The position numbers and the translations under genes are program-made. This document shows, in pieces, positions 1,219 to 63,166 of a DNA stretch of 64,000 bases. The DNA lies in contig CAMBSD010000018.1 of assembly GCA_945870425.1 (NCBI GenBank), positions 1 to 64,000 of the forward strand, given 5' to 3'. The DNA is from Chitinophaga pinensis. Lineage in GTDB: Bacteria; Bacteroidota; Bacteroidia; UKL13-3. The notes under the pieces are model-generated. The model saw only the letters and a list, made by a program, of their open reading frames with translations. It searched no databases and was not told the origin of the DNA. Each line of letters starts with the position of its first letter. Positions within the stretch are counted from its first letter, which is position 1.

Positions 1219-2490
1219 ATGATTTTAAAAAACCTACTAAACAAAACATTTTTCGCGGCTGTATTGTTCATGTTTTCATTGAATGTATTTGCCTTAACCT
1301 CAAACAAAGCCACTACTTTAGTTGCTAAACCATCTTTTGAATTGAAATCATTGATGACAGAAATTAGAATGGATTTGCAAAATCCAACTCAATTAATTAC
1401 GGCTCAGGTTTCCCCAATGTCCGCAGGTGTTGATGCAACAAGCACTTCAGGTATTAATTGGTTGCTCATTATAGTTGCTATTTTATTGGTAGCTGTTATT
1501 GGAGTAGTATTCGATATCCTTGAGAAAACGGCTAAAATTCAAGGTAAAACGCTATTAAATTGGAGCAAAATCAATTCAATTCTATTAATTTTATTTTTAG
1601 TGTTGGGTTTAATCGCAACCGTTTGGGAGTTTTATGCTCACGGTAAATTAACATTGTTTGAACAAGGTTCTGCTTCAGAACATGGTGCTATTTACGATAA
1701 TATGTTTATGATAACTTTGGCATTAACAGGCGTTGTTTTTGTTATCACTCAAGTATTATTATTTTGGTATAGTGCAAAATATAAACATAATCCAAATAGG
1801 AAAGCTTTATATTACCCTGATAACCATAAGTTAGAATATATTTGGACCATTGTTCCAGCCATTGTACTTACTGTTTTAGTAGTGCGTGGTTTAATTACTT
1901 GGAATAAAATCATGTATCAAAAAGACGAAAAAGCCATCAATGTCGAAATTTTCGGATATCAATTTGGATGGAATGTTAGATATGCTGGTACTGATAACAA
2001 ATTAGGTTTTCATGATTTTAGAACAGTGGGTGTTATTAATCCTTTGGGTGTTGATACTACTGATGAAAAGGCCTTTGATGATGTTGTAACAAATGAGTTA
2101 CATTTACCAGTTGGTGTGCCTGTTCATTTTCATTTTAGAGCTAAGGATGTAATTCATGGTGCTTATTTCCCTCACTTTAGAGCTCAAATGAATGTAGTTC
2201 CGGGTTTACCAACACAATTAGAGTTTATACCAACAGTTACTACTGCTGATATGAGAGCAAAATTAAATCAACCGACTTTTGATTACGCTCTTTTGTGCAA
2301 TAAAATCTGTGGTTCAGCTCACTATAGAATGAAAATGAAAATTGTTATCGAGAGTCAAGCCGAATACGAAAAATGGATGAAAGAACAACCGGCTCTTGTC
2401 AATAAGGCAGCTGCTCCAAAAGTAGAAGAAGTTGCTACACCTACTGCAGACAGCAAGAAAAAGGATAAAAAAGAAGTAGCTTTAAATTAA
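1219..2490 (+). CDS. coxB: Cytochrome c oxidase subunit II
   Basis: CuA motif CNKICGSAHYRM; TM hairpin; Bacteroidota-type N-terminal signal/TM extension; followed by subunit I. Confidence 0.95.
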   Translation: MILKNLLNKTFFAAVLFMFSLNVFALTSNKATTLVAKPSFELKSLMTEIRMDLQNPTQLITAQVSPMSAGVDATSTSGINWLLIIVAILLVAVIGVVFDILEKTAKIQGKTLLNWSKINSILLILFLVLGLIATVWEFYAHGKLTLFEQGSASEHGAIYDNMFMITLALTGVVFVITQVLLFWYSAKYKHNPNRKALYYPDNHKLEYIWTIVPAIVLTVLVVRGLITWNKIMYQKDEKAINVEIFGYQFGWNVRYAGTDNKLGFHDFRTVGVINPLGVDTTDEKAFDDVVTNELHLPVGVPVHFHFRAKDVIHGAYFPHFRAQMNVVPGLPTQLEFIPTVTTADMRAKLNQPTFDYALLCNKICGSAHYRMKMKIVIESQAEYEKWMKEQPALVNKAAAPKVEEVATPTADSKKKDKKEVALN

Positions 2491-2524
2491 TTCATTAGTA
2501 AAAATAATTAAATAAAAGTTTTAT

Positions 2525-4438
2525 ATGAGTAACACACATGACAATCATGAAGCAGTAGGACACCACGATGAACATGCGCATCATGAAGAGAATTTTGTAA
2601 GCAAGTACATTTTCAGTATGGACCACAAGATGATTGCAAAACAGTTTTTAATAACTGGAATCATAATGGGAACCATCGGTATGTTAATGTCACTTGTTTT
2701 TCGTCTTCAACTTGCCTACCCAGATACAAAATTTGCTTTTTTTGAGTCGATTTTAGGTCATTGGGGAAAGGATGGAAAGCTTGATCCTAATTTTTATCTA
2801 GCATTAATAACAATTCATGGCACCATCATGGTGTTTTATGTTTTAACTGCTGGTTTGAGTGGCACTTTTTCTAATTTATTAATTCCACTTCAAGTTGGAG
2901 CAAGGGATATGGCATCACCTTTTATGAATATGCTTTCATATTGGTTTTTCTTTATTTCTTCTATTGTATTATTATGCTCATTATTTGTAGAGGGTGGGCC
3001 AGCTTCAGCAGGTTGGACAGTTTACCCGCCTTTGTCAGCTTTACCAAAAGCCATTCCAGGTTCAGGTGCAGGTATGACATTGTGGTTAGTGGCAATGGTA
3101 TTGTTTATAGTTTCTGCCTTGTTAGGAGGTATCAACTATATCACTACTGTATTGAACATGCGTACTAAAGGAATGAAAATGACAAGAATGCCTTTAACTA
3201 TATGGGCTTTCTTAATCACTGCTGTTTTAGGTTTGTTGTCATTTCCAGTATTATTAGGTGGTTCATTATTACTTGTATTTGATAGAAGTTTTGGAACTTC
3301 TTTCTATTTAAACGAAATTGTTGCTGAATTAGCTGGTGGTATTGAAAGAACGGGTGGTTCTCCAGTATTATTCCAACATTTATTTTGGTTCTTAGGTCAC
3401 CCAGAGGTTTATATTATTTTATTACCTGCTTTGGGTATCACTTCAGAAGTAATTGCTACTAACTCTCGTAAACCAATCTTTGGCTACAGAGCCATGATTA
3501 TTTCAATACTTGCCATCGCATTCCTTTCGTTTATTGTTTGGGGTCACCATATGTTTATGACTGGTATGAATCCATTCTTAGGTTCAGTATTTATGTTAGG
3601 AACCTTAATTATTGCTGTGCCTTCGGCAGTTAAAACCTTTAACTACCTAGCCACTCTTTGGAAAGGCAATATCAAACTTACCCCTGCTATGTTGTTTGCT
3701 ATTGGTTTGGTTTCATTCTTTATCTCTGGTGGTTTAACAGGTATATACTTAGGTAATGCTGCATTAGATATTAATTTGCATGATACATACTTTGTAGTTG
3801 CTCACTTCCATTTGGTAATGGGTAGTGCTGCTATTTTTGGTATGATGAGCGGTATTTACCATTGGTATCCAAAAATGTTTGGAACCATGATGAGTAAATC
3901 TCTAGGATATATTCACTTCTGGTTAACTTTCATTTCAGCTTATTGTGTATTTTTTCCAATGCACTTTATGGGTTTAGCTGGTGTACCTAGAAGATATTAT
4001 GCAAATACTGCCTATGATCAATTCAATGTGTTTATTGACATGAATCAATTTATCACCATTGCCGCCATTTTAGGTGGTATTGCACAATTGGTATTCTTGT
4101 TCAATTTCTTCTATAGTATAAGAAATGGAAAACGCTCACCAAAAAATCCTTGGGACTCAAATACATTGGAATGGACAGCCCCAGTTGAGCACTTACATGG
4201 CAACTGGCCAGGAGAAATTCCTCATGTATATCGTTGGCCATATGACTATAGCAAACCAGGTGAAGAAAGTGATTTTATTCCTCAAAACATACCAGATGAG
4301 TCTCAAAATGGAGATCCTATGGTAGAGCCAAAAGCTCCTGCTGTTCCTCACCATACTGAAGCCCCCCCTATGCAATCGCAAGTTAAAGAGGTTGTAATGT
4401 TTTCTGGCTTGAGAAGGTTGTTTGGTTTTGCAGGATAA
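2525..4438 (+). CDS. ctaD: Cytochrome c oxidase subunit I
   Basis: Heme-copper oxidase motifs (HLFWFLGHPEVYIILLPALGITSEV, WGHHMFMTGMNP, HDTYFVVAHFHLVMG). Confidence 0.97.
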   Translation: MSNTHDNHEAVGHHDEHAHHEENFVSKYIFSMDHKMIAKQFLITGIIMGTIGMLMSLVFRLQLAYPDTKFAFFESILGHWGKDGKLDPNFYLALITIHGTIMVFYVLTAGLSGTFSNLLIPLQVGARDMASPFMNMLSYWFFFISSIVLLCSLFVEGGPASAGWTVYPPLSALPKAIPGSGAGMTLWLVAMVLFIVSALLGGINYITTVLNMRTKGMKMTRMPLTIWAFLITAVLGLLSFPVLLGGSLLLVFDRSFGTSFYLNEIVAELAGGIERTGGSPVLFQHLFWFLGHPEVYIILLPALGITSEVIATNSRKPIFGYRAMIISILAIAFLSFIVWGHHMFMTGMNPFLGSVFMLGTLIIAVPSAVKTFNYLATLWKGNIKLTPAMLFAIGLVSFFISGGLTGIYLGNAALDINLHDTYFVVAHFHLVMGSAAIFGMMSGIYHWYPKMFGTMMSKSLGYIHFWLTFISAYCVFFPMHFMGLAGVPRRYYANTAYDQFNVFIDMNQFITIAAILGGIAQLVFLFNFFYSIRNGKRSPKNPWDSNTLEWTAPVEHLHGNWPGEIPHVYRWPYDYSKPGEESDFIPQNIPDESQNGDPMVEPKAPAVPHHTEAPPMQSQVKEVVMFSGLRRLFGFAG

Positions 4439-5411
4439 TTCATTGATAGAAGAAAAAAAATATGAGAGGCGGTTTAGAAAATTTGGTATAGCTACCATAG
4501 CCGCAGTGTTCTTTTTAATATTTGTCGGAGGACTGGTAAGAAGTACCGGAAGTGGAATGGGTTGTCCTGATTGGCCAAAATGTTTTGGACAATATGTACC
4601 GCCCACAAACATTTCTCAATTACCAATTGATTATAAAATACATTTCGCAGTAAATGGAAAAGAGATAGCTGATTTTGATGCTTTCAAAACATGGACTGAA
4701 TATGTCAATCGCTTGGTTGGAGTGGTTATTGGCATTTTGATTTTATTAACAATCGTTTTTGCCTACCCCTATCTTAAAACACAAAACAGAAAGATATTTT
4801 GGTTGAGTTTTTTAGCCTTTATTTTGGTAGGTTTTGAAGGTTGGATTGGATCAAAAGTTGTAGCTACTGATTTAGCTGTAAGTTTAATAAGCATTCACAT
4901 GTTATTGGCTTTGGCTATAGTAGGGTTGTTAATATACACCATCACAAGTTCCCAAAGTTTTGTAATTGAACAATTACAAGAAAACAAATGGATTAACCCC
5001 CTTTTGATTTTTGCTATTTTTGTTTCAATCGTCCAAATTATTAGCGGAACTCAAGTGAGAGAAATCGTTGATGAGGTAGCAAAGCGAATTGACAACAGAT
5101 TTCTATGGATAGAAGAATTAGGGTATGTGTTTAAATTTCATAGAAGTTGGTCTGTATTAAATTTACTTGTATCGATTGTATTAATGTTGCAATATAAAAA
5201 AGCCTTCGACAGAAATTCCTTAATATATAGATCAGGTTTAGCATTGATTCTGTTAATGGCTGTTCAGGCATTCACAGGAAAAGTACTTAGTCTTTTTGGT
5301 TTTCCAGGCTACTTACAAAGTGTTCATTTAACACTCGGTAGCCTAACAGCAGGATTACAGATGTTTATTTTTATCCTGGTGTTTTATAAAACTAAAAAAA
5401 ATATAGTTTAA
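4422..5411 (+). CDS. ctaA: Heme A synthase (COX15/CtaA family)
   Basis: GGLVRSTGSGMGCPDWPKCFG motif, multi-TM, overlaps the end of ctaD. Exact start uncertain (TTG in the ORF track). Confidence 0.93.
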   Translation: MVLQDNSLIEEKKYERRFRKFGIATIAAVFFLIFVGGLVRSTGSGMGCPDWPKCFGQYVPPTNISQLPIDYKIHFAVNGKEIADFDAFKTWTEYVNRLVGVVIGILILLTIVFAYPYLKTQNRKIFWLSFLAFILVGFEGWIGSKVVATDLAVSLISIHMLLALAIVGLLIYTITSSQSFVIEQLQENKWINPLLIFAIFVSIVQIISGTQVREIVDEVAKRIDNRFLWIEELGYVFKFHRSWSVLNLLVSIVLMLQYKKAFDRNSLIYRSGLALILLMAVQAFTGKVLSLFGFPGYLQSVHLTLGSLTAGLQMFIFILVFYKTKKNIV

Positions 5412-5465
5412 CAACTGTCCACATATGTGTATGGTTTTTAAACAAAAAAACAATAACAAAACAGA

Positions 5466-6368
5466 GTGAAAGAAACATTAGAAATAAACTTAGTAAAGTC
5501 AGAATCAATAAGTGCAAAGTTCAAAGACTATTTGTTATTGGTTAAGTTAAGACTTAGCCTTTTAGTTGTTTTTTCTTCAGTAGTTACTTATTTAACTGCT
5601 GCTATGGGTCATTCCATTAATTGGTTTGAGTTATCGATATTAGCGTTAGGTGGTTTTTTTGTTACGGGTTCTGCTAATGGTATCAATCAAATAATTGAGA
5701 AAGATTTTGATAAATTAATGCATAGAACGGCCAATCGACCATTGGCTACCAATAGAATCTCTATCGTGGAAGCAGCCGTTTTTTGTGCACTTTTGGGTAT
5801 AATAGGTATAGCGCTCATAGGGTTTTACTTAAATAAAACAAGTAGTTTGTTGGCCTTAGCTTCATTGCTATCATATGCTTTTATATATACCCCGCTAAAA
5901 AGGGTCTCTCCAATATCTGTATTGGTGGGTGCTTTCCCTGGAGCAGTGCCTGCCATGTTGGGTTGGGTTGCTTTCACAGGCACTATTGGTATTGAAGCTT
6001 TGGTGTTTTTTGGCATTCAATTTTTCTGGCAGTTCCCACATTTTTGGAGTGTAGCTTGGTTGCTTGATGATGATTACAAACGTGCTGGTTTTAAAATGCT
6101 TCCATCTACACCTGGTCGCGATAAAGGGACTGCTTTGCAAACATTGGCATTTACATTGGTATTAATACCTTTTGGAATGTTACCTGCGTATTTGGGATTT
6201 GCTGGCATAATTTCGACTATTATTGCTTTATCAGGAGGTATTTGGATGAGCTACAATGCCTATTTGTTGTTTAAATCGTGCGACATTGCATCCGCAAAGA
6301 GATTAATGTTTTCGGCATTTATTTATTTGCCTTTGGTGCAATTGGCATTTTGGTTAGATAAAATATAA
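5466..6368 (+). CDS. ctaB: Protoheme IX farnesyltransferase
   Basis: UbiA-family motif NGINQIIEKDFDKLMHRTANRPLATNRI; operon context. Start probably GTG at 5466. Confidence 0.95.
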   Translation: MKETLEINLVKSESISAKFKDYLLLVKLRLSLLVVFSSVVTYLTAAMGHSINWFELSILALGGFFVTGSANGINQIIEKDFDKLMHRTANRPLATNRISIVEAAVFCALLGIIGIALIGFYLNKTSSLLALASLLSYAFIYTPLKRVSPISVLVGAFPGAVPAMLGWVAFTGTIGIEALVFFGIQFFWQFPHFWSVAWLLDDDYKRAGFKMLPSTPGRDKGTALQTLAFTLVLIPFGMLPAYLGFAGIISTIIALSGGIWMSYNAYLLFKSCDIASAKRLMFSAFIYLPLVQLAFWLDKI

Positions 6369-6373
6369 AGGAA

Positions 6374-6964
6374 ATGAAAGCAGATATGATTAATGAATTA
6401 AGCAAAACGGACGAACGTGAAAATGATTTTATCAATCCGAAGAAATTTGGTTTGTGGTTGATTATTGTTGCAAGTGTTATGCTTTTTGCTGCTTTCACAA
6501 GTGCTTATATTGTTAGAAGGGGAGAAGGAAATTGGGAGTTATTTGATTTACCAGCTGTATTTGCGTATAATTTGATAACAATTATACTAAGCAGTATTTT
6601 CATGCAAATGGCGTTTGTTTTTGCTAGAAAGGATGAGATTTCTAAAACAAAATTAACATTACTATTAACTATGGTATTGGGAGTTGTGTTTTGCTTCATG
6701 CAATACCAAGGCTGGAAAGAGTTGGTCAAAAACAGCGTTTATTTGGTCGGTAATCCTTCTGGTTCATTTATTTATGTGATTTCAGGGGTGCATATGTTGC
6801 ACGTGATAGGTGGATTGGTATTTGTATCCATCATGTTATTACAAACATTCAGATACAAAGTTCACAAGAAGAGTATATTATATTTAAGCATGTGCACTAC
6901 CTATTGGCATTTCGTAGGTATTTTGTGGGCATATTTATTTATTTTCTTTAAAATGTACAGATAG
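6374..6964 (+). CDS. Cytochrome c oxidase subunit III (short paralog)
   Basis: Subunit III-like TM pattern, SGVHMLHVIGGLVFV, TTYWHFVGILWAYLFIFF. Confidence 0.9.
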   Translation: MKADMINELSKTDERENDFINPKKFGLWLIIVASVMLFAAFTSAYIVRRGEGNWELFDLPAVFAYNLITIILSSIFMQMAFVFARKDEISKTKLTLLLTMVLGVVFCFMQYQGWKELVKNSVYLVGNPSGSFIYVISGVHMLHVIGGLVFVSIMLLQTFRYKVHKKSILYLSMCTTYWHFVGILWAYLFIFFKMYR

Positions 6965-7003
6965 AATTTTATAATTGAAACATTAATTAAACAGAATATA
7001 AAA

Positions 7004-7759
7004 ATGGCAAACACTACTACACTCGAGGCCGAAAAAAAAATTACTTGGGGCGGAGGAAAATCTCCCTTCACGGTAAGTTATGGTAAACTAATGATGTGGA
7101 TTTTTTTACTTTCAGATGCGTTTTCATTCTCATCTTTGTTAGTTACTTACGGCTTTATTAGATTTACTTTTCCAGCTTCTGGAGCTAATGAAATAGTTAA
7201 ACCTTTGTCTCATACAGCCGAAAATTTTGTTGAGGCCATGAGAGAGGCTCATTTATTTTCACCTGAACATTGGCCATTACCTGAACTAGTTTTTAATCAT
7301 TTCCCTTTTTTGCATGGTTTGCATTTGCCCTTATTCTTTGTAAGTTTAATGACATTTGTGCTTATCTTTAGTTCTGTTACAATGGTATTGGCCGTTGAAG
7401 CTGGACATAGAAATGCTAAAAAGGAAGTTGCATTTTATATGCTTCTTACCATTTTTGGTGGTCTTGCCTTTTTAGGTTGCCAAGCTTGGGAATGGACACA
7501 ATTTATTACTGAAGGAGCTTCACTTCATGGTAATCCTTTTGGGCCAACAGCATTTGCAGCCCTATTTTTTATAGTGACAGGTTTCCATGGTTTCCACGTT
7601 TTCTCAGGTGTGGTGCTCAATTTTATTATTTATGTAAACGTTTTAGATGGTACCTACGAAAGACGTGGTCATTATGAGATGGTTGAAAAAGTGGGTTTAT
7701 ATTGGCACTTTGTAGATTTAGTTTGGGTGTTTGTATTCACATTCTTCTATTTGATTTAA
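7004..7759 (+). CDS. Cytochrome c oxidase subunit III
   Basis: FFIVTGFHGFHVFSGVVLNF and GLYWHFVDLVWVFVFTFFYL motifs. Confidence 0.93.
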   Translation: MANTTTLEAEKKITWGGGKSPFTVSYGKLMMWIFLLSDAFSFSSLLVTYGFIRFTFPASGANEIVKPLSHTAENFVEAMREAHLFSPEHWPLPELVFNHFPFLHGLHLPLFFVSLMTFVLIFSSVTMVLAVEAGHRNAKKEVAFYMLLTIFGGLAFLGCQAWEWTQFITEGASLHGNPFGPTAFAALFFIVTGFHGFHVFSGVVLNFIIYVNVLDGTYERRGHYEMVEKVGLYWHFVDLVWVFVFTFFYLI

Positions 7760-7797
7760 TTTTTATCATTTACACATAATTTATTCTAACAAATAAC

Positions 7798-8121
7798 ATG
7801 GAACATACAGAACATTTAGAACATACCGAGTCTCCAGCTGATATTAAAAAGCAAATTTGGAGGACATTTTGGATTTTATCATTTCTTACCGTTATTGATA
7901 TCGTATTGTATTTTGCATTGCTTTCTTATCATTCAATGTGGAAAAATACATTATTTATTCTACTAGGCGTTGTTAAAGCTTTTTATATCGTTGCCGTTTT
8001 TATGCATATGAAATTTGAGCGCAAGGCTTTGGCAGGTATAATTATACTTCCTTTTATGCTAGTGTTAGTCCTTATTTGGCTTGTACTTATTGAAGGAGGC
8101 TATACTTTTGATTTGAGATAA
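7798..8121 (+). CDS. Cytochrome c oxidase subunit IV family protein
   Basis: 107 aa, three TM segments, VKAFYIVAVFMHMKFE motif, operon context. Confidence 0.88.
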   Translation: MEHTEHLEHTESPADIKKQIWRTFWILSFLTVIDIVLYFALLSYHSMWKNTLFILLGVVKAFYIVAVFMHMKFERKALAGIIILPFMLVLVLIWLVLIEGGYTFDLR

Positions 8122-8128
8122 AAATCTA

Positions 8129-8776
8129 GTGAAAAAATCATTCTACATAGCAGCGGGGGTTATTTTAATCCCCGTTTTAGTTTATTTTCTTTTAAAAGCT
8201 GGAAACACTAGTTTTAAAAGACTTCCATATTTAGGTGAGAGAATTGCCCCTGACGGTATCAACCAAAAGGATACGATTTTTTATTCTATTCCTGATTTTG
8301 AGGTCACAGATCAAAAAGGCAAAAAATTAAACCATGCAAGTTTTCAAAACAAAATATTTGTGGCTAATTTCTTCTTTGCCTCTTGTCAGGAGGTTTGCCC
8401 TGCCATGAACAAAAAGTTGGCAGTTGTTTATGATAAATTTAAAGAATTTTCTGAAATCGAGTTTGTTTCATTCACAGTTGATCCTGAAAATGATAGTACT
8501 TCGGTATTATTTGAATATTCAAAAAAATATAATGCAGACCCAAAGATTTGGCATTTTGTAAATACCAATTTAGATGCTACTAGTAAAATAGGGCAAGGAT
8601 TTTTATTGCCAATTTCAAAAGAGGATAAAACAATTGACCATAGTCAGCAGTTAATTTTAATAGATAAAGAAAAACATATTAGAGGCGTTTACAATAGTTT
8701 CGATGAAGAAGATATGAAACGCTTAAATGACGAATTAAAAGTATTATTATATGAGTACCACCAACCTGGAAAGTAA
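8129..8776 (+). CDS. SCO1/SenC family copper chaperone
   Basis: FFFASCQEVCPAMNKKL (CxxxC) in a thioredoxin-like fold; operon context. Confidence 0.93.
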   Translation: MKKSFYIAAGVILIPVLVYFLLKAGNTSFKRLPYLGERIAPDGINQKDTIFYSIPDFEVTDQKGKKLNHASFQNKIFVANFFFASCQEVCPAMNKKLAVVYDKFKEFSEIEFVSFTVDPENDSTSVLFEYSKKYNADPKIWHFVNTNLDATSKIGQGFLLPISKEDKTIDHSQQLILIDKEKHIRGVYNSFDEEDMKRLNDELKVLLYEYHQPGK

Positions 8777-9347
8777 AGATAAATTAGTTCTAAAAGTTGT
8801 TATTGGTTTATCCCTTTTTGTTTTTTTTACAGTAGTAGTTCTAAATAAACAAATTTTACCAAAACCGAGTGCAATCCCATCATGGACTTATATACTACCT
8901 ATGATAAATGCTATTATTAATGGCACGTGTAGCATTCTTTTATTGGTCTCATTATATTTTATTAAAAGAAGAAATATTGAGATACACAAACAAATTAACC
9001 TAATTGCCTTTGTGCTTTCTAGTTTGTTTTTGGTATGTTATATCTTATACCATTGGTTATCTAAAGAAACTGTATACGGAGATATGGATCACGATGGTTT
9101 ATTGAGTGAAGCTGAATCACTAGCCGTTGCTTCATCCAAGTCTATTTACTATTTCATTCTTATTTCACATATTGTTTTAGCAGCTATAGTTCTTCCCTTG
9201 GTGTTATTATCATTTTATAGCGGTTTGCAACTTGATGTAGATAAGCACAAAAAATTAGTTCGTTATTCTTTTCCAATATGGCTCTATGTTACCATTACTG
9301 GTGTAGTGGTTTATATCATGATTAGTCCATTTTATCCGCTACAATAA
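8751..9347 (+). CDS. DUF420 domain-containing membrane protein
   Basis: Multi-TM, KINxxLNxxS-like PSWTYILPMINAIINGTCSILLLVSLYFIKRRNIEIHKQINL, downstream of SCO. Confidence 0.88.
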   Translation: MSTTNLESKDKLVLKVVIGLSLFVFFTVVVLNKQILPKPSAIPSWTYILPMINAIINGTCSILLLVSLYFIKRRNIEIHKQINLIAFVLSSLFLVCYILYHWLSKETVYGDMDHDGLLSEAESLAVASSKSIYYFILISHIVLAAIVLPLVLLSFYSGLQLDVDKHKKLVRYSFPIWLYVTITGVVVYIMISPFYPLQ

Positions 9348-50465: not shown

Positions 50466-52604
50466 TTATTTAATCAATTTCATTTCGTTTACGATTTGTG
50501 GCGCTTGGCCATATTTTTCAATTAACCAAAGTACATAGCGAATATCAACATTAATGGTACGTTTGTTGGCAGGGTCGAAATGGATATTACCACTCATCGC
50601 TTCCCAGTTTCCGTCAAAAGCCAAACCGATGATATTTCCTTCTCCATCAATAACTGGGCTTCCGCTGTTTCCACCGGTAATGTCGTTATCACTCAAGAAA
50701 GCTACAGGCAGTTTGCCATCTTTCATAGCATATCTTCCATAATCTTTAGCATTATACAAGTCGATTAATCTTTGAGGTACATTATATTCAGGATTGGTAG
50801 GGAATTTTTTATTTTTAGCAATCACCTCATCCAAATTGGTAATCATTTGGTACTTCATATAAGGCTTTACAGTACCGTATGTTAAACGTAATGAAGAATT
50901 TGCATCAGGATAATAGGTTTTGCTGGGATTCATTTCCATCAAACCTTTGATATAGGTACGACCTAAAGCTTGCGAAGTTTCAGTGAAAGCATCTACTTTA
51001 GATTTGAATTTGCTCATGTAATTCTCTCTCATGGCTTTGATAAACTTATAAGCGATATCGTTTCTCAATAATGCAGGACGTGGGTTATGGAACCAAGCCG
51101 AAGCCATGTTTTCATCAGCAAAAATACTGTTGTTGAATACATCGTTCGTAAAAGCAGCAATAGCTGCTCTGGGGTTATCTGTATTGTATTTCAAAACCAC
51201 ATCATTCATATAGGCCGGTTGTTGGTCTTTAGGAATATTATTGTAATATAAAACCAAAATACTATCAAACATACGTTTATCAGCAGCAACAATCATCGGG
51301 TTGTATGGTAAGTCTTTTAAGCCTTCAATCATTTGCTCCTTCATTTTTGAAATGGCTTTCTCATCACCTTTTTCAAATGTTTCGTCCATACTCATGGCCA
51401 TTCCAATAAATTTGGAAAGGGTAGGGGCAAGAATACCTTCGTTTAAATAAGTGCGTTGCAAACCATATGGTTTGTATGCTTCAAAAGTTGTTTTTACATC
51501 ACCTAAAAGGTTTTTGTATTCAGCCTTGTTAGCAGACCATTTTGCAAAAGCAGCTTCTTCTTTTTGTTTTTGTTCAAATACCTTATTTCTTTTCAATTGC
51601 TCAGCCTCACCTCTAAAATACTTCCAGTAGTTAGCCACACTTGCAAAGTCAGAAGATAATTTCAAACGGGTATCAACGTCTTTATTCATTTGCTCTTTCC
51701 ATGCATTTAATCTTACATCACGCAAAGCCACGATAGCTGGATCTACTATGTCAGTAGCAATTTGAACACCTTGGCTAAATTCATAACGGTTGGTGCGACC
51801 AGGAAATCCCATAATCATAGCGAAATCACCTTTGTTTACACCTTTGATATTTATTGGTAAAAAGTGTTTTGGGGTATAAGGTTTGTTTTCAACAGAATAT
51901 GCGGCTGGCTTATTATCTTTATTTGCATAAATACGAAACATACTGAAATCACCTGTATGACGTGGCCACATCCAATTGTCGGTTTCGCCACCAAATTTAC
52001 CAATACTTTGAGGAGGGGTTCCTACTAAACGGATATCGGTATATCTTTCTAAAACAAATAGGTAGTAAGCATTTCCTTTAAACATTTCGCGAACCAAGCC
52101 TTCTTGATTAGTTCCTTCGGTAGCTGCTTTAACTATCTTTCTATATATTTCAGGTAGTTTAGCTGCGCGGGTTTTTTCATCCATGCCTTTTATTTCAGCT
52201 AAAACTTTGTCAGTCACATCTTCCATGCGCTGCACAATGGCTATAGTTAAACCTTCTATGGCTTTTTCTTCACTCATGTTTTTTGCCCAAAAACCATTAT
52301 CTAAAATGTTGTCTTGTGGGCTAGATTTACCTGCAATGGCATCATATCCACAGTGGTGATTTGTAAGCACTAGACCTTTATCAGAAATGATTTCAGCAGT
52401 ACATCCACCACCAAACCATACCACTGCATCCTTTAAACTACTAGTGTTTACATCATATAGTTGTTCTGAGGTTAATTTTAATCCCTTAGCCTTCATGGCT
52501 TCGTAGTTGTACTTTTTTAATAAAATGGGTAACCACATTCCCTCATCGGCATGCACCAATCCACTCATTAATAATGCTAAAACGCTGTAAATAAATTTTT
52601 TCAT
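50466..52604 (-). CDS. S46 family peptidase (DPP7/DPP11-like)
   Basis: GGGCTAEIISDKGLVLTNHHCGYDAI; WMWPRHTGDFSMFRIY; DITGGNSGSPVIDGEGNIIGLAFDGN. Confidence 0.95.
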   Translation of the reverse strand: MKKFIYSVLALLMSGLVHADEGMWLPILLKKYNYEAMKAKGLKLTSEQLYDVNTSSLKDAVVWFGGGCTAEIISDKGLVLTNHHCGYDAIAGKSSPQDNILDNGFWAKNMSEEKAIEGLTIAIVQRMEDVTDKVLAEIKGMDEKTRAAKLPEIYRKIVKAATEGTNQEGLVREMFKGNAYYLFVLERYTDIRLVGTPPQSIGKFGGETDNWMWPRHTGDFSMFRIYANKDNKPAAYSVENKPYTPKHFLPINIKGVNKGDFAMIMGFPGRTNRYEFSQGVQIATDIVDPAIVALRDVRLNAWKEQMNKDVDTRLKLSSDFASVANYWKYFRGEAEQLKRNKVFEQKQKEEAAFAKWSANKAEYKNLLGDVKTTFEAYKPYGLQRTYLNEGILAPTLSKFIGMAMSMDETFEKGDEKAISKMKEQMIEGLKDLPYNPMIVAADKRMFDSILVLYYNNIPKDQQPAYMNDVVLKYNTDNPRAAIAAFTNDVFNNSIFADENMASAWFHNPRPALLRNDIAYKFIKAMRENYMSKFKSKVDAFTETSQALGRTYIKGLMEMNPSKTYYPDANSSLRLTYGTVKPYMKYQMITNLDEVIAKNKKFPTNPEYNVPQRLIDLYNAKDYGRYAMKDGKLPVAFLSDNDITGGNSGSPVIDGEGNIIGLAFDGNWEAMSGNIHFDPANKRTINVDIRYVLWLIEKYGQAPQIVNEMKLIK

Positions 52605-58003: not shown

Positions 58004-59020
58004 CTAATTCAATTTCTTTACCTCAAACACAGGAAATCCTTTTTGTCCTCGGTGGTTATAAAAGTCGGTGAAGCGCATTTTCCAAACAATACCTGGTATA
58101 TTTCCTTTTGGCTTGATGACATAATTAACATAATCGCGGGCCTTGTAATGTTGGTTATTGAAATCATATACTTTCCAATCAAATCCGATTACATCGCGTT
58201 GTGTTTTGAAATTTAAAGATAAGGCTGTGCTAAGGTCGATTTTATAGAAATTTAAAGTACTATCAACTGCTGCTTCGTTTTTAAATGTGTTTATATGTAT
58301 TCCATTCACCAAATATGGAAAGGGTGGATTTAATTCATAATAAACCGTTCGGTAACGAACAAAGCAAAAATCCCAATCATTTTTATTGGGCTCAATATCT
58401 AAAATAATACCTCCTTTATCAAAGTTAAAATACACATTAAGTTTCTCTGCTAACCTTGGTATATGTGCAATGACTAAAGGCCTTTGAGCATAGATGTCTG
58501 TATAGGCTATGGTATATTCCTTTACATTTACATCAATGATTTTGAACTGCATATACCTTTCTTGTGGAGGGCAGTTTGAGCCTCTATCAATAACATATAC
58601 GGAGTCGGTAACCAATTTAGTACTTTTGTTATACCAGCCTTTTAAAGCCAAAGAATCACTAACACCTGAGGCTTCATCCCATCTCCATTTAAGTTTGTTT
58701 CCATCAATATTGCTTTTTAATTTACCTAAGCCTGCGTTGGCAATGAAGGCTGCGTTTCCGCCATTTAGAGTTATATCAAAGGTATTGGTATCACAACTGA
58801 AACTTAGATCCCAAATCATTTGAGGAAAGTTTAGCTGTGAGCTATCGCTTAGGTTCACAAATACTTGGTTTCTGTAATCAGGTCCAAGGTAGCAGGAGAA
58901 AATAGTAGTAGTTGTATCCTGCTTAGGAATCATAACCCTAACATCTTCTTTTTCACAAGAAGTAAGAGCTATGCTGCTAATGAATAATAGTGAAACTAAG
59001 TATACTTGTATGTTCTTCAA
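58004..59020 (-). CDS. HmuY-like lipoprotein
   Basis: Lipobox ALTSC; YFNFDKGGIILDIEPNKNDWDFCFVRYRTVYYE; C-terminal FDWKVYDFNNQHYKARDYVNYVIK. ATGA overlap with the TonB receptor. Confidence 0.75.
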   Translation of the reverse strand: MKNIQVYLVSLLFISSIALTSCEKEDVRVMIPKQDTTTTIFSCYLGPDYRNQVFVNLSDSSQLNFPQMIWDLSFSCDTNTFDITLNGGNAAFIANAGLGKLKSNIDGNKLKWRWDEASGVSDSLALKGWYNKSTKLVTDSVYVIDRGSNCPPQERYMQFKIIDVNVKEYTIAYTDIYAQRPLVIAHIPRLAEKLNVYFNFDKGGIILDIEPNKNDWDFCFVRYRTVYYELNPPFPYLVNGIHINTFKNEAAVDSTLNFYKIDLSTALSLNFKTQRDVIGFDWKVYDFNNQHYKARDYVNYVIKPKGNIPGIVWKMRFTDFYNHRGQKGFPVFEVKKLN

Positions 59021-61062
59021 TTTATTTTGTTTATTTGATATCTTATAGCTATAAATAAGGATCTTCCAACCCCTGTCATAGCTGAATTGTTTTGAGTTGA
59101 ATGGTAACCCGACATATAGCTTGCATTCACATTCACCACATTGAAAATATTTTTAATTCCACCAGTTATTGAGAGGTGTTTTTTGAAAAAGTTTTTACTC
59201 GCAGTTGCATCAAAAATACTAAATGCATCATAGTAAGTAATTTTTACTTTATTGCTTATATTATCGTATTGATAGGCTTGGTAAAAACCATTCAATTTGC
59301 AGAACAAAGATAGGTTCAATTCATTTTTAAAAGTATAACTAGCATTTACTCTTCCTTGGTGGTTAAAGAAAAATTCATTGCTTGTTGGTGTGTTTAATAG
59401 AATGTTTTTAACCCCCATGTATGCATAGCCCACCGATACATTTATTTTTGAAGTTTTATATTCAGTATTTATGTTCAATCCGATGCTTTCAAATTGGTTC
59501 ACATTCACATATTTCATCTTCAGGTTGATAGAGTCAGTGCGGGCTAGGTCTATCATATTATCGATTTTATTATAAAATACTGAAGGTTCAAGTCTGAGTA
59601 ACTTTTTGTCTGTTTTGTATTGATAAGTAAGAAACGCTTGCAGGTTGTTAGAAGTTTCTGCTTGTAGGTTTATATTTCCTTGAATATTATGACTTGGGTC
59701 AACAAAGTTCAAATACAATTCTTTTAAAGATGGTGTTCTAAATCCTCTTGCATACGACATACGTAGGAAAACACGCTCACTTACATCGTATTTTATATTC
59801 AATGATGGGTTTATAGGCGCGGCATAAAGAGTGTTATATGTCAATCTCATACCTGGACGAGCAGTAAATTTCTTACTTACTTTAACTTCAGTACTAGCAA
59901 ATAAACTGTAATCACCCATGCCTCTATAAGAGCCTTGTATCTTATTTCCTTCAGCTGTTTCATAATTAACATCGTAACCCAATTGATAATTGATTTTGCT
60001 ATTTATGTTATTATAGCTATAAGTAGCTCTGCTCATGTATTGATTAAAGTAATTAGTATCTTGAAGGTCGGCTTCAGGAATTAATGACTCAGTTAAATTG
60101 AGCATGTTTTTATAATAGGTATGTAACATACGCCTGTAGTTACTATATGAAACGAGCATATTTATATGCCTGTTTGCAGTTACTTTCTTGTCATAAAACA
60201 ATGAGCTGGTTATTCTTCTTGTGAAATAATATGAATCATTTGCATAAGCTTTTTGCAAAGGGATATTGATGTTTACCTCACCTTTGTTACTTATTTTTTC
60301 ATTGAAAATATTGTTTTGAAATTTAATACTTCCATCCTTAATGATCTTTCCAAAATTAATATCTCCAAAATATTGCTCGCGCGGCTTCCAAAGCATCACT
60401 CGGCTATTTTCATCCATACTATATCCTTGGAAAAAATTTCTTCCTAAATTCAATTGTGAATTCCATTTTTTGTTGGCCAGGCCTAAACCTAAATCTGCAT
60501 TGTATGCACCAACGCTTTCGTAATAGGTGTTTAAGTTAGCCTTTAGTTCGTTTTGCTTAGGCTTTTTGGTGATAATATTTAAAACTCCACCTAGAGCATC
60601 AGTACCAAAGTTTACACTCATGGGGCCTTCCACTATTTCAATACGCTCAACATTGTTCATGTTGATTTGAGATAAATCTATGCTACCCCCTTCGCGACCT
60701 ATTATAGGAACGCCATCAAATAATATTTTTATGCTCTGACCGCTCACGCCTTGCAGGCTGATGCTGCTTCCTAACAGTGGGTCTTGGTTGATTCTGATGT
60801 TAAGCTCATTGCTTAACACATCTTTAAGATTAACAGCGCCTTGGGCTTGTATTCGTTTGTTATCAATAAGTTTAACCTTATAAATTGACTTGCTTGTACT
60901 ACTTTCTCCATATTGACCTGTTACCACTAGTTCGCTCAGGTGTTGCAGTTTGTTAAGCTGGCTAGTATCAGCCGATTTATTCTGGGCTTTAAGCAAAGTA
61001 GTACCCATAAACATTAATGCGATGCTTATGGGTACTATTAGATATTGCTTATTTAAATTCAA
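59017..61062 (-). CDS. TonB-dependent receptor
   Basis: Plug domain VNLKDVLSNELNIRINQDPLLGSSISLQGVSGQSIKILFDGVPIIGREGGSIDLSQINMNNVERIEIVEGPMSVNFGTDALGGVLNIITKK. Confidence 0.93.
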   Translation of the reverse strand: MNLNKQYLIVPISIALMFMGTTLLKAQNKSADTSQLNKLQHLSELVVTGQYGESSTSKSIYKVKLIDNKRIQAQGAVNLKDVLSNELNIRINQDPLLGSSISLQGVSGQSIKILFDGVPIIGREGGSIDLSQINMNNVERIEIVEGPMSVNFGTDALGGVLNIITKKPKQNELKANLNTYYESVGAYNADLGLGLANKKWNSQLNLGRNFFQGYSMDENSRVMLWKPREQYFGDINFGKIIKDGSIKFQNNIFNEKISNKGEVNINIPLQKAYANDSYYFTRRITSSLFYDKKVTANRHINMLVSYSNYRRMLHTYYKNMLNLTESLIPEADLQDTNYFNQYMSRATYSYNNINSKINYQLGYDVNYETAEGNKIQGSYRGMGDYSLFASTEVKVSKKFTARPGMRLTYNTLYAAPINPSLNIKYDVSERVFLRMSYARGFRTPSLKELYLNFVDPSHNIQGNINLQAETSNNLQAFLTYQYKTDKKLLRLEPSVFYNKIDNMIDLARTDSINLKMKYVNVNQFESIGLNINTEYKTSKINVSVGYAYMGVKNILLNTPTSNEFFFNHQGRVNASYTFKNELNLSLFCKLNGFYQAYQYDNISNKVKITYYDAFSIFDATASKNFFKKHLSITGGIKNIFNVVNVNASYMSGYHSTQNNSAMTGVGRSLFIAIRYQINKIN

Positions 61063-61083
61063 ATTATTCTTAGCAGAAAATAA

Positions 61084-62400
61084 TTATTCTACGATTAATT
61101 TTTTAGTTACACTAACCCCATTAATATTTAAGTTGATGAAGTATAAGCCTTTGTTGAAACTTGATAAATCAAGTTGTGTATTATTTCCAACGATGGTTGT
61201 TGTGCTCACTACTTTTCCTGTCATATCGATGATCGAAACAACCACCTGCTCTTTTCCTGAAATGGATGGGATGGACACATTTACTATTTGTTTTGCAGGA
61301 TTAGGGTATATTGATACTTCAAGATTCAAATTAGATAAGTTTGAAATACCTGTATTCATTTTAGGTGAAATGGTTTTGATATTGAACACGATGATTTGAG
61401 ATGGAACATTCGAGAATTTATCAAATGTCAATTTGTAAGTAACTGAATCTTTATCACGCTTGATAAAATAAGTTAATGAATCTGTTAAATTCCATGGACC
61501 CGAAGGGGGAGGACCTAATGGTGTTACTTTCCAATCCCAACCGATGGTACCTATTCTTTTAGAGTAAATAGTAATATCACTAGTATCAGATATTGGTTTA
61601 GCAACATTAGTTACTCTAGCAACATTCAATTGTGGGGCTTGTAACACACCTGCAAAGTTGAAAGCAGATGTAGGAAATCCAGGGAAAGTAGCATTGGTGC
61701 GATAGTGAGTGAAAACTAAATCCCAATTTCGGTTTGGCTCACGATCAATAACCGTTTTTGTTAAGATGTTGTAATAAGCAAACAATTTGCCTTTGTAGGT
61801 TGGTTTGCTAATGGTTTGGGTAGTGCTATCAGTTCCATCTAAATTACTGAAAGTAAAAAACCACAAAGTATCATACGCTAATTTTTGAATAGTGATTTTT
61901 TTGTAGGTTTTAGCTTGACCTGATCCAACTGCCAAAAGATACATTTTTGTTCCTTCTACATTGTGACTGTTCATACTGTATTGTCCCCAACCATAGTCGA
62001 ATGGGTTACTTGCATCGTAATCAGCATTAAATGCTGCTACATCCCATGAGCTATCTCCATTAGCCATTACACGCCAAGTTGTAAAGCCTGCGGTGTCAAA
62101 ACTACTCCATTGGTTACTTGTGAAATTGCTTTTGTATAAAGTTACATTTCTTGAAGCATTGATACGAACGGTGGTTGAACGCATCACGTTTGCAGGAGGA
62201 AGAGCAGGTCTCATGGCAAAAGCCAAATGCCAATTTGTATTAACTACTGTATCTTTATCTCCTGTTGTCAAATTATAAAACACATCATAGGGATAAGGTG
62301 GAGTTCCTGTACCCATTGAAACTGAATCTACTCTCGTGTTTTGCGCTGATACAGCAGCGGCAAGTGCTAATAAAATAATGCTTACTATGTTTCTTTTCAT
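61084..62400 (-). CDS. HmuY-like protein with T9SS type A sorting domain
   Basis: YKGKLFAYYNILTKTVIDREPNRNWDLVFTHYRT...GTIGWDWKV; C-terminus VSIYPNPAKQIVNVSIPS...GLYFINLNINGVSVTKKLIVE. Confidence 0.78.
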   Translation of the reverse strand: MKRNIVSIILLALAAAVSAQNTRVDSVSMGTGTPPYPYDVFYNLTTGDKDTVVNTNWHLAFAMRPALPPANVMRSTTVRINASRNVTLYKSNFTSNQWSSFDTAGFTTWRVMANGDSSWDVAAFNADYDASNPFDYGWGQYSMNSHNVEGTKMYLLAVGSGQAKTYKKITIQKLAYDTLWFFTFSNLDGTDSTTQTISKPTYKGKLFAYYNILTKTVIDREPNRNWDLVFTHYRTNATFPGFPTSAFNFAGVLQAPQLNVARVTNVAKPISDTSDITIYSKRIGTIGWDWKVTPLGPPPSGPWNLTDSLTYFIKRDKDSVTYKLTFDKFSNVPSQIIVFNIKTISPKMNTGISNLSNLNLEVSIYPNPAKQIVNVSIPSISGKEQVVVSIIDMTGKVVSTTTIVGNNTQLDLSSFNKGLYFINLNINGVSVTKKLIVE

Positions 62401-62788: not shown

Positions 62789-63166
62789 TTAAGGCTTTAA
62801 TCGTTGGGCTCCAGACTTTTTTCTTATAACAATTCCTAGCTTACTTTCTGCAACATCTATCATGGTATTATAAAGATCTGCCTTTAACTCAGCTATTCGT
62901 TTTTCTTCTTCTAGCCTTGCCACTTTTTCCTTTAACTCTTGAAGTTCTTTATTATCATTCATCAATTCAAATTTAGTATTTTCATTCATTGGTTGTCGAT
63001 AGTTTTTCTCTCCGTTAAACTTTCGCATCCGATACAATACTGCACATTTTGCCTTTATTCCATAAAGTCTTCGTGCTTCTTCCTTTGTGTATTTTCCTAA
63101 TAATACATCGTTTACTACAGTTGCTTTAAATTTTTCACTGTAATTGGTTGGTTTTTTTCTTTCCAT
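62789..63166 (-). mobile_element. Solo IS3-family orfA-like transposase (no orfB visible), probable IS remnant
   Basis: MERKKPTNYSEKFKATVVNDVLLGKYTKEEARRLYGIKAKCAVLYRMRKFNGE HTH followed by a leucine-zipper-like coiled coil. Confidence 0.75.

Follow-up and report, generated by a model that had tools for sequence, protein, structure and literature searches.

What does a TonB-dependent receptor flanked by two HmuY-like proteins, one bearing a sorting signal of the type IX secretion system (T9SS) and the other a lipoprotein, bring into the cell, and why should it have two such partners? The question is raised by a locus at 58004–62400 in a stretch of 64,000 nucleotides (positions 1 to 64,000 of contig CAMBSD010000018.1, assembly GCA_945870425.1, Chitinophaga pinensis; hereinafter, the window), where three co-oriented genes on the minus strand form a tight unit. 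The trio is, with good probability, an operon for the capture and outer-membrane uptake of haem (tetrapyrrole) in a haem-auxotrophic, T9SS-bearing member of the Bacteroidia. Haem is the best-supported ligand on three independent lines, namely the operon partners of the trio, the genome content and a motif in the receptor. An earlier note, made from the sequence of the locus, had proposed that haem is the substrate and that one HmuY of the T9SS type is paired with another of the lipoprotein type; the two proposals are well supported by homology, by operon partners and by the association with the ferrochelatase gene hemH.

Architecture of the trio and homology of its products

The first gene of the operon (61084–62400) encodes a T9SS-exported HmuY-like protein of 438 amino acids, the second (59017–61062) a HmuR-like TonB-dependent receptor of 681 amino acids with a PF07715 plug and a PF00593 barrel, and the last (58004–59020) a HmuY-like surface lipoprotein of 338 amino acids; all three open reading frames lie on the minus strand at the positions given in the earlier note. 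The receptor gene begins 21 bp downstream of the T9SS gene and overlaps the lipoprotein gene by 4 bp. This overlap had been read as ATGA, but the actual letters are TTGA. TTG is the apparent start codon of both the receptor and the lipoprotein (58004–61062), and that of the lipoprotein is retained in a sister genome (locus L061).

The export signals of the two flanking proteins are confirmed by profile searches and alignments, and here the initial description holds. The C-terminus of the 61084 protein (61090–61311) is a T9SS type A sorting domain that scores above the cut-offs of both PF18962 (Por_Secre_tail, 62.1 bits against 27) and TIGR04183 (54.5 against 23). As the genome that contains the window includes a gene for SprA, a T9SS is available for the export of this protein. 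The lipobox of the 58004 protein, ALTSC, ends in the lipid-attachment residue Cys22, which is present in 75 of the 75 lipoprotein homologues. The residues that start from this cysteine, C-E-K-E-D (58943–58957), with an acidic residue at +5 in all 75 aligned homologues and lysine at +3 in 57, fit the surface-export signal of Bacteroidetes lipoproteins, for which the consensus is K-(D/E)2 (PMC5080379).

The two flanking proteins are homologous end to end, with family profiles that align over 278 columns (hhalign probability 100%, E=1.5e-43). The lipoprotein matches the Pfam HmuY family PF14064 with 35.6 bits (cut-off 27), amino acids 196–333 covering positions 6–156 of the 157 in the profile, and 32 of 36 lipoprotein homologues match it as well. 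The T9SS protein of the window has no direct Pfam HmuY match; 13 of its 31 homologues do, the best at 5.9e-11. Searches of the PDB with the single sequences of the window proteins yield no HmuY, and HmuY structures emerge with family profiles: the whole lipoprotein profile retrieves 8b6a (8.5e-9), 3h8t (1e-5) and 6eu8 (0.0012), its N-terminal half aligning to the beginning of HmuY and its C-terminal half to the end.

The module shared by the flanking proteins, which the earlier note had counted once in each, is thus real, but the homology spans both halves and is consistent with two HmuY-like domains per protein. In the lipoprotein, the profile of the C-terminal half (58007–58459) matches 8b6a (E=2.9e-6) and 3h8t (E=7e-4), and that of the N-terminal half (58460–58909) has two PDB matches only, both HmuYs, at E=0.62 and 0.67. 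In the T9SS protein, the C-terminal half (61351–61815) matches 8b6a (0.0041) and 3h8t (0.026) and aligns to the C-terminal half of the lipoprotein with E=6.8e-30; the best match of the N-terminal half (61816–62343) is again HmuY 8b6a (E=0.0031, in two pieces in order). When the halves of each protein are compared directly by profile, the internal repeat shows up faintly (79%, E=1.7e-5 between the lipoprotein halves; 8% between the T9SS halves). The mature body, of about 310–330 amino acids, compares with a single domain of about 200 in the HmuY family. Because each half separately matches HmuY structures, both proteins are probably tandems of two HmuY-like domains, with the N-terminal half of the lipoprotein as the weak point of this reading.

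In a tree of the two forms, 70 T9SS proteins and 75 lipoproteins separate cleanly (support 1.0, branch 0.87). The forms are therefore old and remain distinct, and this split points to two distinct conserved roles. The receptor between them carries the FRAP-His-NxxL motif that has been discussed for haem receptors (PMC9331221), in the segment GFRTPSLKELYLNFVDPSHNIQGNINL at 59665–59745; among 76 aligned receptors, His458 is found in 74, and Asn463 and Leu466 in all.

Distribution, operon partners and haem synthesis

The trio is not peculiar to the window genome but common across the Bacteroidia, with a wide spread among free-living members of the class. By family counts from protein and profile queries, the lipoprotein profile matches in 145 of 395 Bacteroidia genomes and in 88 of 197 genera. 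A survey of receptor neighbourhoods for one T9SS-type and one lipoprotein-type HmuY, a check suggested by the earlier note, finds all three genes in 66 inspected loci from many families, with the receptor between the two HmuY genes, barring rearrangements. The usual order is T9SS protein, receptor, lipoprotein, with few exceptions (e.g. L079, where the lipoprotein gene lies ahead of the T9SS gene), and the receptor–lipoprotein junction mostly falls between −4 and +5 bp. In some genomes of the same family, the T9SS gene is sited apart from the receptor–lipoprotein pair. A few same-family genomes encode double-length T9SS proteins of about 760–770 amino acids (e.g. L084, 7414–9714; L073, 9726–11996), in which the two-domain body is repeated, probably to give four HmuY-like domains.

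In prototroph genomes, the trio is associated with genes for haem processing. In five inspected genomes it is joined by HemS/ChuX and the genes of a HmuTUV-type importer, the HmuT-U-V and HemS genes lying between the T9SS and receptor genes in G061, G354, G358 and G251, and divergent and adjoining in G264. Two Pfam-scanned HemS copies score 256.6 and 250.8 bits, and the G061 ATPase exceeds the haem-importer cut-off (268 against 261). Other trio operons contain a CbiX-like chelatase with either a PepSY_TM protein or an FMN-binding/Fer4 membrane protein, or else DUF6607. The CbiX-like chelatase lies beside PepSY_TM within the operon in L081 (8988–10522), L090 (2702–4230) and L094 (7538–9063), with further such loci in L107, L126, L134, L136 and L138; several of these chelatases have a lipoprotein-like N-terminus, and the pair is a candidate periplasmic haem dechelatase and reductase. 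A 460-amino acid FMN_bind/Fer4_5 membrane protein replaces PepSY beside the chelatase in L102 (8244–9626), L114, L123, L131 and L133. DUF6607 (PF20311; 354–355 bits in two scanned copies) occurs in the trio operons of ferrochelatase-positive genomes (L104, L105, L106, L113, L119, L120 and L139), which suggests that it has a part in haem use.

The trio is also associated with the loss of haem synthesis. Across the 395 genomes, 46 of those with the trio profile have ferrochelatase and 99 lack it, compared with 203 and 47, respectively, of those without the profile (p=9e-23, phylogeny not corrected). The type of operon follows the same line: among genomes with added modules, 23 have hemH and one lacks it; among those with a bare trio, 6 have it and 33 lack it (p=1e-10 by genome). 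With one vote per family and type, the counts are 13/1 vs 3/14 (p=4e-5).

The window's own operon is a bare trio. In the assembly to which it belongs (97% complete), there is no match for ferrochelatase (hemH), ALAD (hemB), HemS or CobN/HmuS; the CobN-like HmuS (PF02514) is likewise missing from the 34 other genomes searched. Ferrochelatase is absent from 34 of 35 same-family genomes, as is hemB. The sole tested same-family genome with haem synthesis genes, G033, has hemB and hemH within 5 kb (contig C15, 84617–89280), which looks like a re-acquisition. Yet the window genome has two COX1 genes, one of them inside the window, in a complete cytochrome c oxidase cluster on the plus strand (1219–9344) with the order COX2, COX1, CtaA, a CtaB-like UbiA prenyltransferase, COX3, COX3, SCO1 and DUF420. 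CtaA is haem A synthase, and the UbiA-family protein is taken as haem O synthase (CtaB). Given oxidase, CtaA and CtaB-like genes in a genome lacking matches to hemH, hemB, HemS and HmuS, the organism in all likelihood takes up haem intact and then modifies it. Accordingly, with haem synthesis absent from the host, haem itself rather than iron is the likely purpose of the trio here, where it would feed the oxidase encoded in the window and the synthesis of haem A.

Mechanism and rival explanations

The arrangement suggests a relay. The 61084 protein, exported by the T9SS and either attached to the surface or released, would act as a tandem HmuY-like haemophore that catches haem. The 58004 lipoprotein, presumably brought to the outer face of the cell by its export signal and probably docked on the receptor, would accept haem from the T9SS-displayed HmuY and hand it to the 59017 receptor, which would move it into the periplasm, powered by TonB. 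Both the binding of haem by the two HmuY-like proteins and the order of transfer, in which the T9SS protein passes haem to the lipoprotein and the lipoprotein to the receptor, are predicted from homology and gene arrangement.

Several observations weigh against this picture. The earlier note had pointed to an alignment of putative haem-ligating residues, and that alignment gives no support: no His/Met pair is conserved among the 75 lipoproteins or the 70 T9SS proteins, which speaks against a simple transfer from HmuY. The sole conserved candidate ligand is His146 of the T9SS protein (61963–61965; 58 of 70 sequences, 83%), in a loop directly before the ‘YLI/YFI’ strand. Some known HmuYs bind haem without iron ligands, with the His/Met pair missing (PMC12106395), and HfpY binds haem despite poor similarity to HmuY (PMC9331221). 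AlphaFold models of the proteins, built on alignments of 3–4 sequences, reach a predicted local distance difference test score (pLDDT) of 36–37, at which no pocket is demonstrable. The receptor is equally near to B12 and haem receptor models, under every cut-off (for the NCBIfam haem models, 107 bits against 317 for TIGR01785 and 112 against 324 for TIGR01786). The genomes behind the statistics share ancestry and do not count as independent observations, and relatedness is not fully removed from the operon-type p-values. Finally, deletion of a T9SS-secreted HmuY in Flavobacterium columnare produces no growth phenotype (PMC9618737).

This last result also favours the most serious alternative, a possible if tentative one, in which haem is the ligand but there is no relay: the lipoprotein would work with the receptor alone, and the T9SS form would be a surface or released scavenger with a task of its own, such as stripping haem from haemoproteins or storing it, or else would serve the receptor as an alternative partner. 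The double-length T9SS proteins encoded apart from the receptor–lipoprotein pair in G026, G038, G048, G050 and G052 would suit such independence; in contrast, the T9SS gene holds its position in the operon in 66 loci from many families and never substitutes for the lipoprotein. It is unlikely that the trio imports another tetrapyrrole or metal chelate, be it cobalamin, sirohaem-like or plant and algal porphyrins, or siderophores. The near-equal receptor scores, the CbiX-like chelatases in some trio operons and the unconserved HmuY iron ligands would allow for that, whereas the presence of HemS/ChuX in operons together with an ATPase above the curated haem importer cut-off, the strong inverse association with ferrochelatase, the FRAP-His-NxxL motif and the homology to HmuY all argue for haem, below which the siderophore and B12 readings are ranked.

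Even less probable is that haem serves this organism as a source of iron, although such is the use in most characterised systems of Bacteroidota (HmuS, PMC12583661) and iron-extraction genes are present in the trio operons of prototrophs. The genome has no HemS or CobN/HmuS match, it combines the absence of haem synthesis with haem-dependent oxidase genes in the window, and its operon is bare, as in the 39 bare-operon genomes of which 33 lack hemH.

A broader reading, for and against which the balance is about even, is that a widespread haem uptake system of environmental Bacteroidia, not put together before, relies on two ancient paralogous tandem HmuYs, one exported by the T9SS and the other a surface lipoprotein, and one receptor in two functional editions. 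In one, the bare trio would bring intact haem as a cofactor to haem auxotrophs; in the other, the extended operon of prototrophs would extract haem iron via interchangeable modules, namely HemS with an ABC importer, DUF6607, or a new dechelatase of the CbiX type that acts in the periplasm together with a reductase, either PepSY or FMN-binding.

Known systems and further features of the window

Parts of this arrangement have been published. As in HmuYR of Porphyromonas gingivalis and Bacteroides thetaiotaomicron (PF14064), the gene of a HmuY-fold lipoprotein adjoins that of a TonB haem receptor; unlike HmuYR, the trio has two HmuY-type proteins, each apparently a two-domain tandem and one exported by the T9SS, and comes here without HmuSTUV and without the conserved His/Met ligand pair. 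The HfpR–HfpY system of Flavobacterium psychrophilum likewise combines a receptor with a HmuY-like haemophore, for which haem binding and haem use are proven although HfpY lacks clear HmuY ligands; its operon has no T9SS-type HmuY partner described (PMC9331221). The DoxX-like gene of that operon resembles small membrane genes in trio loci L104 and L106. T9SS secretion of a HmuY is known from F. columnare C6N29_01035, where PF14064 and Por_Secre_tail share one protein, described alone and outside any receptor–lipoprotein trio (PMC9618737). In the hmu operon of Porphyromonas endodontalis, the T9SS-sorting gene POREN0001_0445 lies upstream of, and is co-transcribed with, hmuY and hmuR (PMC11208336, PMC12106395), but it was not recognised as HmuY-like, its function was left unknown, and elsewhere it is reported as an orphan gene. 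The xenosiderophore system XusAB (PMC13142918) also places a surface lipoprotein as a lid on a TonB transporter and has a PepSY reductase partner; however, the lipoprotein fold is unrelated (DUF4374) and the ligand is a siderophore. Among the open-access papers searched (subscription papers lay outside the search), none was found to describe the pairing of T9SS and lipoprotein forms, how widely this arrangement is spread, its tandem domains, or the split between bare and module-bearing operons along haem auxotrophy.

Haem auxotrophs are common in natural waters; of 192 auxotroph genomes surveyed from freshwater and marine habitats, 60% had no known haem receptor, and the existence of unknown receptors was suggested (PMC11139205). 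For many Bacteroidia, the trio provides a concrete candidate for such a receptor that can be put to the test. The split between bare and extended operons separates genomes that want haem as such from those that want its iron, and singles out the CbiX-like, FMN-binding/Fer4 and DUF6607 proteins as candidate components of haem-iron extraction.

Upstream of the T9SS gene lies a weak IS3 OrfA-like remnant (62789–63166; 25.6 bits), and elsewhere in the window, a gene at 50469–52604 encodes an S46 family dipeptidyl-peptidase (716 bits).

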